Positions 1,237 through 42,874 of a DNA stretch of 62,352 nt are shown piece by piece. How positions within the stretch are numbered: the stretch's first letter is position 1; every line of letters begins with the position of its first letter. A model generated the notes under the pieces. That model had not been told where the DNA came from. It saw only the letters and a program-made list of their open reading frames with translations, and made no database searches. The translations under genes were made by a program, and so were the position numbers. This DNA comes from Archaeoglobi archaeon JdFR-42 (GTDB taxonomy: Archaea > Halobacteriota > Archaeoglobi > Archaeoglobales > JdFR-42), in NCBI GenBank assembly GCA_002010305.1, contig MTND01000032.1:1-62352 (forward strand), in the 5' to 3' direction.

Positions 1237-1650
1237 TCACCACTCCCCTGCTAGAGGCTCCTGATACAGTACGAATTTATCTCCCTTAACACCTATTAGG
1301 CCTACAGGAAGGAGAAGGTATCGTATGGCATCACCTATTACTCTGATCAGCTCTGGTGATGTGGCTACTACATATATTTCAGATATATCGTAGGTAGTGA
1401 GATATGCTAAAGCCCGTCCAATTGTGGCATAAGCAGAAAAAGGAATTGTGAGATCACCCTCTATCTCAACCAGATCGTCAAAAGAGTTGTCTACGAATAT
1501 ATACCCGATAATATCTTCCTCTGAAATTTCTACTACATCAATTAAATCGGTTTTTACGGCCTTAGAATTTCTTCCTTCTATCCAAGATATGAGTTTATCA
1601 ATGAGATCTTTATCACCAATAGATCTTTTAACTTCATCGTTGTCTATCAT
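1237..1650 (-). CDS. Conserved-looking hypothetical protein, 137 aa
   Basis: I do not recognise this protein. It is acidic at the N-terminus, with an alternating hydrophobic pattern in the second half that suggests a small alpha/beta fold, and it ends in LAGEW. There is no signal peptide or clear membrane helix. It lies 29 bases downstream of the ubiquitin-like protein gene on the same strand and probably shares its transcript, so a link to that protein is possible but not shown. It is convergent with the multiheme cytochrome gene. It was kept as a gene because of its length, its protein-like composition and its same-strand spacing. Confidence 0.6.
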   Translation of the reverse strand: MIDNDEVKRSIGDKDLIDKLISWIEGRNSKAVKTDLIDVVEISEEDIIGYIFVDNSFDDLVEIEGDLTIPFSAYATIGRALAYLTTYDISEIYVVATSPELIRVIGDAIRYLLLPVGLIGVKGDKFVLYQEPLAGEW

Positions 1651-1679: not shown

Positions 1680-1898
1680 TTAGCCACCGGATATTACCCT
1701 TAAAAGTTTAATTTCACCCTCTTCAACAAGGTCGTCTATTGGGACTGGAAACCCATCTCTGATAACAATAACCGTTTCGGGGTTTATATCTATGGTTTCC
1801 AGCAATTTCTCATAAGTAGTCCCTTTGTCCACATCTATTTCCCAAACCTGTTTGTTACTCCCGAGCATCTCAATCCTGACTTTCAAGCTCAGCATCAC
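1680..1898 (-). CDS. MoaD/ThiS-family ubiquitin-like protein (SAMP-like)
   Basis: This 72-residue protein has a beta-grasp pattern and ends in the diagnostic Gly-Gly (VISGG). MoaD/ThiS proteins are adenylated at this C-terminus by an E1-like enzyme, and then either carry sulfur (molybdopterin, thiamine, tRNA thiolation) or, as archaeal SAMPs, are conjugated to proteins. The first codon is GTG at 1898 with ATG directly after it at 1895; ATG is equally likely as the start. It overlaps the end of a 42-codon reading frame upstream and precedes an unrecognised gene. The window also holds moaA and mobA (38.6-40.1 kb) and an E1-like protein (26.9 kb), so either sulfur transfer or conjugation is possible. 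Confidence 0.75.
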   Translation of the reverse strand: MMLSLKVRIEMLGSNKQVWEIDVDKGTTYEKLLETIDINPETVIVIRDGFPVPIDDLVEEGEIKLLRVISGG

Positions 1899-2080: not shown

Positions 2081-2218
2081 TTATTCTCTCACATGAAAAG
2101 CTGTAATGACAGAACAGCTTCTACACTCTGGCTTGGTCGAACGGGCACACTCCGCCCAATCCAGTACCATCTGAGCAGATGGGCATAATACCACACTGTT
2201 TTCAACTTCATTAAGCAT
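2081..2218 (-). CDS. 45-aa four-cysteine protein, copy 1 (paralog of 42448-42585)
   Basis: This protein has cysteines at 12, 24, 32 and 35 (spacing CX11CX7CX2C) and a histidine at 42, near the C-terminal HVRE. A second gene at 42448-42585 has the same length, 30 of 45 identical residues and every cysteine in place. That conservation is strong evidence that both are real genes. Four cysteines of this spacing could hold a zinc or an iron-sulfur cluster; this is inference. It starts ATG CTT with no Shine-Dalgarno, and its palindromic TATA box is centred 26 bp upstream, so the mRNA is probably leaderless. It lies between cofC and the ubiquitin-like gene group on the same strand. I recognise no family. 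Confidence 0.75.
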   Translation of the reverse strand: MLNEVENSVVLCPSAQMVLDWAECARSTKPECRSCSVITAFHVRE

Positions 2219-2230
2219 AGTCGCTTATAG

Positions 2231-2257
2231 TTGTTTAAACTATATATAGTTTTTGTA
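2231..2257 (-). promoter_or_regulatory. Palindromic promoter block shared with the paralog
   Basis: These 27 bases are identical to the plus strand at 42409-42435, and both blocks end exactly 12 bases before the ATG of a 45-residue four-cysteine gene. Inside is the perfect palindrome AAACTATATATAGTTT (2237-2252), which includes a TATA-like core, followed by the overlapping palindrome GTTTAAAC. The TATA centre is about 26 bp from ATG. The arrangement looks like a TATA box with an operator built over it, suggesting autoregulation or a common regulator. Confidence 0.75.
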
Positions 2258-2366
2258 TGTTATTGTAGTTCATACATAAAATAACCAAAGATCTCCCTAC
2301 ACTTTTTGATAAATAACTAACTGTCCAAAACCTCCGTATTCCTCCCCCCTTTTATGAGTTGCTAAC

Positions 2367-5002: not shown

Positions 5003-5095
5003 GGGCCGGTAGCTCAGTCAGGCAGAGCAACGGGCTCTTAACCGCTTGTGCGGGGAGATACCCGTCGGTCGAGGGTTCAAATCCCTTCCGGCCCG
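5003..5095 (+). tRNA. tRNA-Lys (anticodon CTT) with a 19-nt intron
   Basis: The acceptor arms GGGCCGG (5003) and CCGGCCC (5088-5094) pair fully, with discriminator G. The T arm is GAGGG-TTCAAAT-CCCTT. The anticodon stem ACGGG (5030-5034) pairs with CCCGT (5061-5065) only if 5041-5059 is removed, which leaves the loop CTCTTAA with anticodon CTT at 5037-5039. The insertion lies at position 37/38, the canonical archaeal site. It contains a CCGC-TTGT-GCGG hairpin compatible with a bulge-helix-bulge substrate for the splicing endonuclease. The exact cut may shift by one base because A flanks both sides. Confidence 0.93.
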
Positions 5096-9089: not shown

Positions 9090-9162
9090 GGGCTCGTGGT
9101 CTAGGGGTTATGACGTCTGCCTCACACGCAGAAGATCGGGAGTTCGAATCTCCCCGAGCCCA
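9090..9162 (+). tRNA. tRNA-Val (anticodon CAC)
   Basis: The acceptor GGGCTCG pairs with CGAGCCC (9155-9161) and the discriminator is A. The anticodon arm is TCTGC-CTCACAC-GCAGA with anticodon CAC, and the T arm is GGGAG-TTCGAAT-CTCCC. There is no intron and CCA is not encoded. Confidence 0.96.
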
Positions 9163-11795: not shown

Positions 11796-11847
11796 ACTAT
11801 AAGATTAACCGACAGAGATATTAAATAGTTTGCCTTTATGATGAGAT

Positions 11848-12162
11848 GGTGGGCTAGCCCGGGTGGCTCGGCGTCACCTGTAACCCGAAATCGTCGATAT
11901 GCGGGGGGCGAAGCCGATGGGAGTCCGAGCATACCACCATGAATACCTTGGTCCAGACCATGAGTCCCCGTCTCATGGGATCGGCGGTTATGAGGGGGCT
12001 TTCCGTAGGGACTGTCTCCTCATATTTACCGTGGGCACCGGTTTAGGCCCGGAAGGGAGCAGACCTACCACGGACGTTCGATGCTCATGAGGTTCCGGGG
12101 ATGAGAATGGATCAGGGACCGTTCTGGTGGTGGTGTTCGGGCGACCTGAGGCGGGCCCACCA
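11848..12162 (+). ncRNA. ffs: Signal recognition particle RNA (7S RNA)
   Basis: The RNA folds end to end: GGTGGGC at the 5' end pairs with GCCCACC at the 3' end (12154-12162). It carries the near-invariant helix 8 core GGCCCGGAAGGGAGCAGACC (about 12045-12064) and the CCAGACCATGAGTCCCC tract. About 315 nt is the usual archaeal size with helices 1-8. It is the scaffold for SRP54 and SRP19; srp19 lies at 47505. Confidence 0.95.
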
Positions 12163-42319: not shown

Positions 42320-42408
42320 TAGGGGTCCCTGTAAATTCAGAGTGTTGGTAGATTTTTATTTTTCCAAAAAAGAAGGTATAATGTTTTTATGTATACACTA
42401 TAGCCATA

Positions 42409-42435
42409 TACAAAAACTATATATAGTTTAAACAA
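42409..42435 (+). promoter_or_regulatory. Palindromic promoter block, second copy
   Basis: These 27 bases are identical to the minus strand at 2231-2257. They include AAACTATATATAGTTT at 42414-42429 and end 12 bp before ATG 42448. Outside this block the two flanks diverge quickly, so the identity marks selected regulatory DNA, not a recent duplication. Confidence 0.75.
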
Positions 42436-42447
42436 TTACAATAGTAC

Positions 42448-42585
42448 ATGCTTGCTGAAGTGGAAACTAGGATGGTACTATGTCCCTCTTCTCAGAGAGT
42501 GATAGACTGGATGGAGTGTGCACGAGCAACTATGGATGAGTGTAAGAGCTGTTTAGCAATTACAGCTTATCATGTAAGGGAATGA
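42448..42585 (+). CDS. 45-aa four-cysteine protein, copy 2 (paralog of 2081-2218)
   Basis: It has the same length as copy 1, with 30 of 45 residues identical and Cys12, Cys24, Cys32, Cys35 and His42 conserved. The core features are VLCPSSQRVIDWMECARAT, ECKSC and the ending ITAYHVRE. It starts ATG CTT without a Shine-Dalgarno, 26 bp after the palindromic TATA. Most changes are synonymous or conservative, a sign of purifying selection. A role as a small metal-binding regulator or redox protein is possible; the family is unknown to me. It lies upstream of dnaG on the same strand, with about 160 bp to the next small frame. Confidence 0.75.
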   Translation: MLAEVETRMVLCPSSQRVIDWMECARATMDECKSCLAITAYHVRE

Positions 42586-42745: not shown

Positions 42746-42874
42746 ATGTCAGATACACTAACAAAAAATCACAAAAAGTTGGGTATTGGTAAGGATCATC
42801 GTTCATCCATCATAAAAGGAAAATCCGAATATGCCCACTTACCGGTACCCAGCTTTTTTGACATAGGAGGTTGA
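42746..42874 (+). CDS. Small protein upstream of dnaG, 42 aa
   Basis: The frame reads [19 protein letters not shown] and continues [26 protein letters not shown] lies about 25 bp after the TATA-like CATATATTAA (42718-42727), fitting a leaderless message. The stop overlaps the AGGAGGTTGA ribosome binding site of dnaG, so the two may be coupled. It is basic, has no Cys and belongs to no family that I recognise; it may instead be leader sequence. Confidence 0.45.

Follow-up and report, generated by a model that had tools for sequence, protein, structure and literature searches.

Positions 1 to 62,352 of contig MTND01000032.1 of Archaeoglobi archaeon JdFR-42 (assembly GCA_002010305.1), referred to here as the window, carry two paralogous genes that each encode a 45-residue protein with four cysteines and that are preceded by the same block of DNA. 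Copy 1 is flanked by cofC and a SAMP2 gene, and copy 2 directly precedes dnaG. The features discussed below are the following.

2081..2218, minus strand: copy 1, gene for a 45-residue four-cysteine protein, stop codon included, from the list of open reading frames
42448..42585, plus strand: copy 2, paralogous gene for a 45-residue four-cysteine protein, upstream of dnaG and syntenic with the single ortholog in the genome G001
2231..2258, minus strand: 28-bp block of copy 1, consisting of the BRE (ACAAAAAC), the TATA box within the palindrome AAACTATATATAGTTT (2237-2252), and then GTTTAAAC
42408..42435, plus strand: 28-bp promoter block of copy 2 (palindrome at 42414-42429)
1680-1898, minus strand: SAMP2 gene beside copy 1

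The product of copy 1 is MLNEVENSVVLCPSAQMVLDWAECARSTKPECRSCSVITAFHVRE and that of copy 2 is MLAEVETRMVLCPSSQRVIDWMECARATMDECKSCLAITAYHVRE. The two proteins align without gaps and are identical at 30 of 45 residues (67%), and a search of the whole 2.15-Mb genome identified them as its only members of the family. Both possess cysteines at positions 12, 24, 32, and 35, a spacing of CX11CX7CX2C, as well as a histidine at position 42. An initial annotation of this DNA had proposed the minus-strand protein with these five residues and its gapless 67% paralog, and the reading frame and the alignment confirm both. It had also described an identical block of 27 bp ending 12 bp before each ATG; the identity and the spacing hold, and the length is 28 bp, with the sequence ATACAAAAACTATATATAGTTTAAACAA matching at 28/28 positions. 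The gene pair and its shared block are real and do not represent a chance finding.

The coding regions of the two copies are 73% identical in nucleotide sequence, and the changes between them are biased to third positions. By the Nei-Gojobori method, 60% of the synonymous sites, which are near saturation, and 19% of the nonsynonymous sites differ, giving a dN/dS of 0.18. The proposed frame is the only one open in all three known sequences of the family, the alternative frames being interrupted, and its start and stop stand at the same positions in each. That these are protein-coding genes of 45 codons under purifying selection is well supported. The shortness of the frames and the single known ortholog might suggest spurious frames within a duplicated noncoding region, but the low dN/dS, the third-position bias, the shared start and stop with interrupted alternative frames, and the absence of an unusual RNA fold (z 0.30) render this explanation extremely improbable.

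The third member of the family is found in G001 (WAJW01000089.1, 'Archaeoglobaceae archaeon isolate S009_4_esom'), which belongs to the same family of organisms and a different genus. The initial annotation had made the standing of the gene depend on homologs outside this genome, and one thus exists. The ortholog has 45 residues and aligns without gaps to the two copies, to which it is 40-42% identical. Sixteen columns are invariant across the three members, comprising Met1-Leu2, Glu4, Glu6, Val10, Cys12-Pro13, Asp20-Trp21, Glu23-Cys24, Arg26, Cys32, Cys35, and Arg44-Glu45. Of the motif residues first proposed, all four cysteines are therefore kept, whereas His42 is not conserved, position 42 being a phenylalanine in the sole ortholog. 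Like copy 2, the G001 gene directly precedes dnaG, and for this reason the dnaG-side locus would most simply be the ancestral place. Since copies 1 and 2 are closer to one another than either is to the G001 protein, the duplication that gave rise to them is most simply placed after the divergence from the G001 genus. The SAMP2 gene and the 137-residue protein that neighbor copy 1 have no match in G001; a later insertion, a loss in G001, and an assembly gap all fit the absence of copy 1 there.

The window holds several other features. The gene for the 137-residue protein, which has no Pfam match, follows the SAMP2 gene (1237-1650, minus strand), and a frame at 181-1098 on the plus strand contains several CXXCH motifs and resembles a multiheme cytochrome. 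An archaeal SRP RNA is located at 11847-12162 on the plus strand with a tRNA 45 bp after it, and further tRNAs lie at 5003-5095 and 9090-9162. An operon of copy 2 with dnaG was considered and rejected, as about 300 bp separate the two, holding a promoter-like element of dnaG's own and a hairpin. This long hairpin, just before dnaG at 42773-42859 (and at 5833-5927 of L178), has a stem of about 20 bp (AAAAAGTTGGGTATTGG...CCGGTACCCAGCTTTTTT), lies close to a Shine-Dalgarno-like GGAGG, and has a fold z of -4.46. Its G001 counterpart (z -4.11) shares the left arm and differs in the right arm by two G-U/A-U changes, and the exact left arm occurs nowhere else in either genome. The hairpin had no Rfam match, and none like it preceded dnaG in the other Archaeoglobales loci that were read in dnaG orientation; it is possibly a structured 5' leader that regulates dnaG.

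The search for further relatives covered several collections. A profile built from the three members gave no additional convincing relative among 394 genomes of the phylum, only two genomes being positive. Weak matches in G072 and G090 sit inside larger frames, presumably DUF169-like, and were rejected, as were other weak matches in short or interrupted frames. Scans of viral contigs and GTDB contigs with short peptide seeds, which distant relatives outside the phylum could escape, yielded no further family member, and tblastn against plasmids and phages yielded none. Diverged homologs were also sought by cysteine pattern near dnaG and cofC, at 30 loci each, and only the two known dnaG-linked copies were recovered; an extra frame with the pattern in L087 is antisense and was rejected as a chance occurrence. 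Finally, sequence searches of Pfam, NCBIfam, PHROGs, PADLOC, and the PDB gave no match, even at E 10. The earlier statement that no such family had been described is borne out for the libraries searched, in which, on this evidence, the family is undescribed. As far as these searches reach, it is a small family so far confined to one Archaeoglobales-related lineage.

In a protein of 45 residues that lacks a signal sequence, four invariant cysteines usually indicate a metal site, and the product is probably a Cys4 metal-binding microprotein. An AlphaFold2 model built from three sequences, of low confidence (mean pLDDT 68, pTM 0.43), consists of a beta-hairpin, a helix, and a strand, an arrangement compatible with a small metal site. 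With this model, a fold search of the PDB returned nothing significant; among its matches, all of which have E above 2, are several U-box, B-box, and RING folds. The closest likeness is to the C(P)XCG zinc-finger micro-proteins of Haloferax volcanii (HVO_2753, HVO_0758), which are likewise archaeal, very small, and equipped with four conserved cysteines. Those proteins have fewer than 70 residues, as do all three members here with 45, their role is mostly unknown, and some bind zinc (PMC11241148, PMC10716476). They differ in carrying two C(P)XCG motifs, whereas the present family has one CX2C (CKSC, CRSC, CDQC) and two lone cysteines (CPSS/CPVT and ECAR/ECSR), with no CG and hence no C(P)XCG, and no sequence match between the two groups was found. 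Of 14 purified Haloferax proteins of this type, five were zinc-free, and AlphaFold2 could not tell the binders (PMC11241148). Zinc as the bound metal is therefore a guess of moderate strength. Alternatively, the cysteines, which include a CXXC pair, might ligate an iron-sulfur cluster or engage in switchable disulfides in a small redox protein of this anaerobic archaeon, but no ferredoxin-, rubredoxin-, or thioredoxin-like match was obtained in Pfam, NCBIfam, or the PDB, and CX11CX7CX2C is, to our knowledge, no familiar Fe-S motif. We regard this alternative as rather unlikely.

The position of the shared block was compared with promoters across 856 kb (about 40% of the genome), comprising 399 upstream regions with the window included. 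Relative to the start codons of this genome, TWTATA is most frequent at -32 to -29, and an A-rich BRE stands 4-6 bp further upstream. Copies 1 and 2 have TWTATA at -30/-28 with ACAAAAAC just upstream, at the genome-wide peak position, and both genes thus display the layout of a leaderless BRE/TATA promoter, with TATA some 27 nt and an A-rich BRE some 33 nt ahead of the start codon. In published archaeal promoters, the positions relative to the start site are near -27 for TATA and near -33 for BRE (PMC5316973), and the positions found here match the layout published for transcripts that begin at the ATG (PMC5316973, PMC4158304). In the G001 ortholog, ATACAAAAACTTTATATAG stands equally far from the start codon and is identical at 18/19 bp, so that BRE and TATA are kept; after TATATA it reads GAATGG, where the right arm of the palindrome would stand. 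It thus has AAACTTTATATAGAAT where the copies have AAACTATATATAGTTT, and the candidate operator is not conserved across species. In a control comparison of the same region across 27 ortholog pairs of the two genomes, one unrelated pair with a BRE/TATA-like core reached 18/19 and another pair 17/19. The conservation of the promoter core in this family is therefore unexceptional.

Within JdFR-42, the identity of the block at 28/28 positions is far beyond what drift would leave, since synonymous sites of the two genes differ at 60% and their coding regions are 73% identical, and this supports constraint on a promoter element upstream of the pair. The identity continues for 10 bp past the TATA box and then falls to 5 matches in the following 12 bp. 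That the two copies also share GTTTAAACAA downstream of TATA exceeds the needs of a core promoter, and something may act on this sequence. The initial annotation had proposed a genome scan for the 16-bp palindrome; exact matches to AAACTATATATAGTTT occur at only these two sites in the whole genome, each centred 26.5 nt before the ATG. However, CTATATATAG is already self-symmetric, and three further matched flanking pairs suffice for 16 bp; moreover, the two palindromes were inherited through one duplication and count as one event. The palindrome is best read as part of an ordinary strong archaeal BRE/TATA promoter rather than as a sign of a novel type of gene switch. It resembles ordinary leaderless promoters in its A-rich BRE, its TATA near -27, and its predicted start at the ATG (PMC5316973), and differs from them in that a perfect 16-bp palindrome encloses TATA in both copies.

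The initial annotation had instead deduced from the palindrome a logic of repression by blocking TBP, which is disfavored by the canonical BRE/TATA distance, the missing 3' half in the ortholog, and the similar core conservation at an unrelated ortholog pair. One form of this idea holds that the palindrome and the overlapping GTTTAAAC serve as operator for a separate dimeric protein, which would block TBP/TFB and so control the two genes jointly. The complete identity of the block despite near-saturated synonymous sites, extending beyond the TATA box, would fit such a regulator, as would the restriction of the exact palindrome to these genes; in the 856 kb, no other palindrome of 14 bp or longer has TATATA at its centre with that centre exactly 26.5 nt ahead of an ATG. 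Operators of this kind are known, and for that reason such a design would by itself be no novelty: that of Pyrococcus furiosus TrmB, with the palindrome TACTN3AGTA, overlaps BRE/TATA, and a palindrome over BRE/TATA would block basal factors or RNA polymerase (PMC4158304). The operator of Archaeoglobus fulgidus MDR1 overlaps the start site. Nevertheless, G001 retains BRE/TATA without the right arm, the two palindromes amount to a single event with an intrinsically symmetric core, and no third exact site exists in the genome that would indicate a regulon. A separate regulator is thus a doubtful explanation.

The form preferred initially, in which the small protein senses metal or redox state and acts on the palindrome as its own repressor, draws on the four conserved cysteines and on the fact that each copy in this genome has the promoter element. 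The family proteins are acidic (pI 4.5-5.2, net charge -2.4 to -4.5), which disfavors direct DNA binding, and no DNA-binding domain was detected by family or fold match in Pfam, NCBIfam, or the PDB. Additionally, His42 is not conserved, and half of the operator is missing in the G001 ortholog. TrmB and MDR1 are winged-helix or DtxR-type proteins and far larger than 45 residues, and the candidate operator here is a palindrome that the ortholog does not keep. We consider autorepression highly improbable, and hardly less so if the metal- or redox-sensing protein is allowed to control its two genes either alone or through a dimeric partner by covering the palindromic TATA. If true, such autocontrol would represent a minimal switch confined to one archaeal lineage.

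For these genes, with their purifying selection, conserved cysteines, synteny, promoter position, and promoter conservation, the reading that we favor, with a probability of roughly 60%, is that of a lineage-restricted paralog pair with ordinary leaderless promoters, encoding a Cys4 metal-binding mini-domain and derived by duplication from the dnaG locus. Both genes would be expressed from ordinary strong BRE/TATA promoters as leaderless mRNAs with the 5' end at or next to the ATG. The product is predicted to fold as a beta-hairpin, a short helix, and a beta-strand that surround a single metal ion, most likely zinc, with the four invariant cysteines as ligands. It is probably a self-contained mini-domain whose binding partner would be a protein or an RNA. 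Copy 1, beside cofC, would have originated after the G001 genus had split off, in a duplication that included the promoter. The locus also offers a caution, in that an AT-rich palindrome over the TATA box of two paralogs with a common ancestor argues only weakly for an operator, and comparison with an ortholog of a neighboring genus suffices to distinguish the promoter core from its symmetric extension. With this pair, the catalogue of archaeal microproteins gains a probably unannotated family whose cysteine spacing is distinct, and the ortholog shows which residues are kept.
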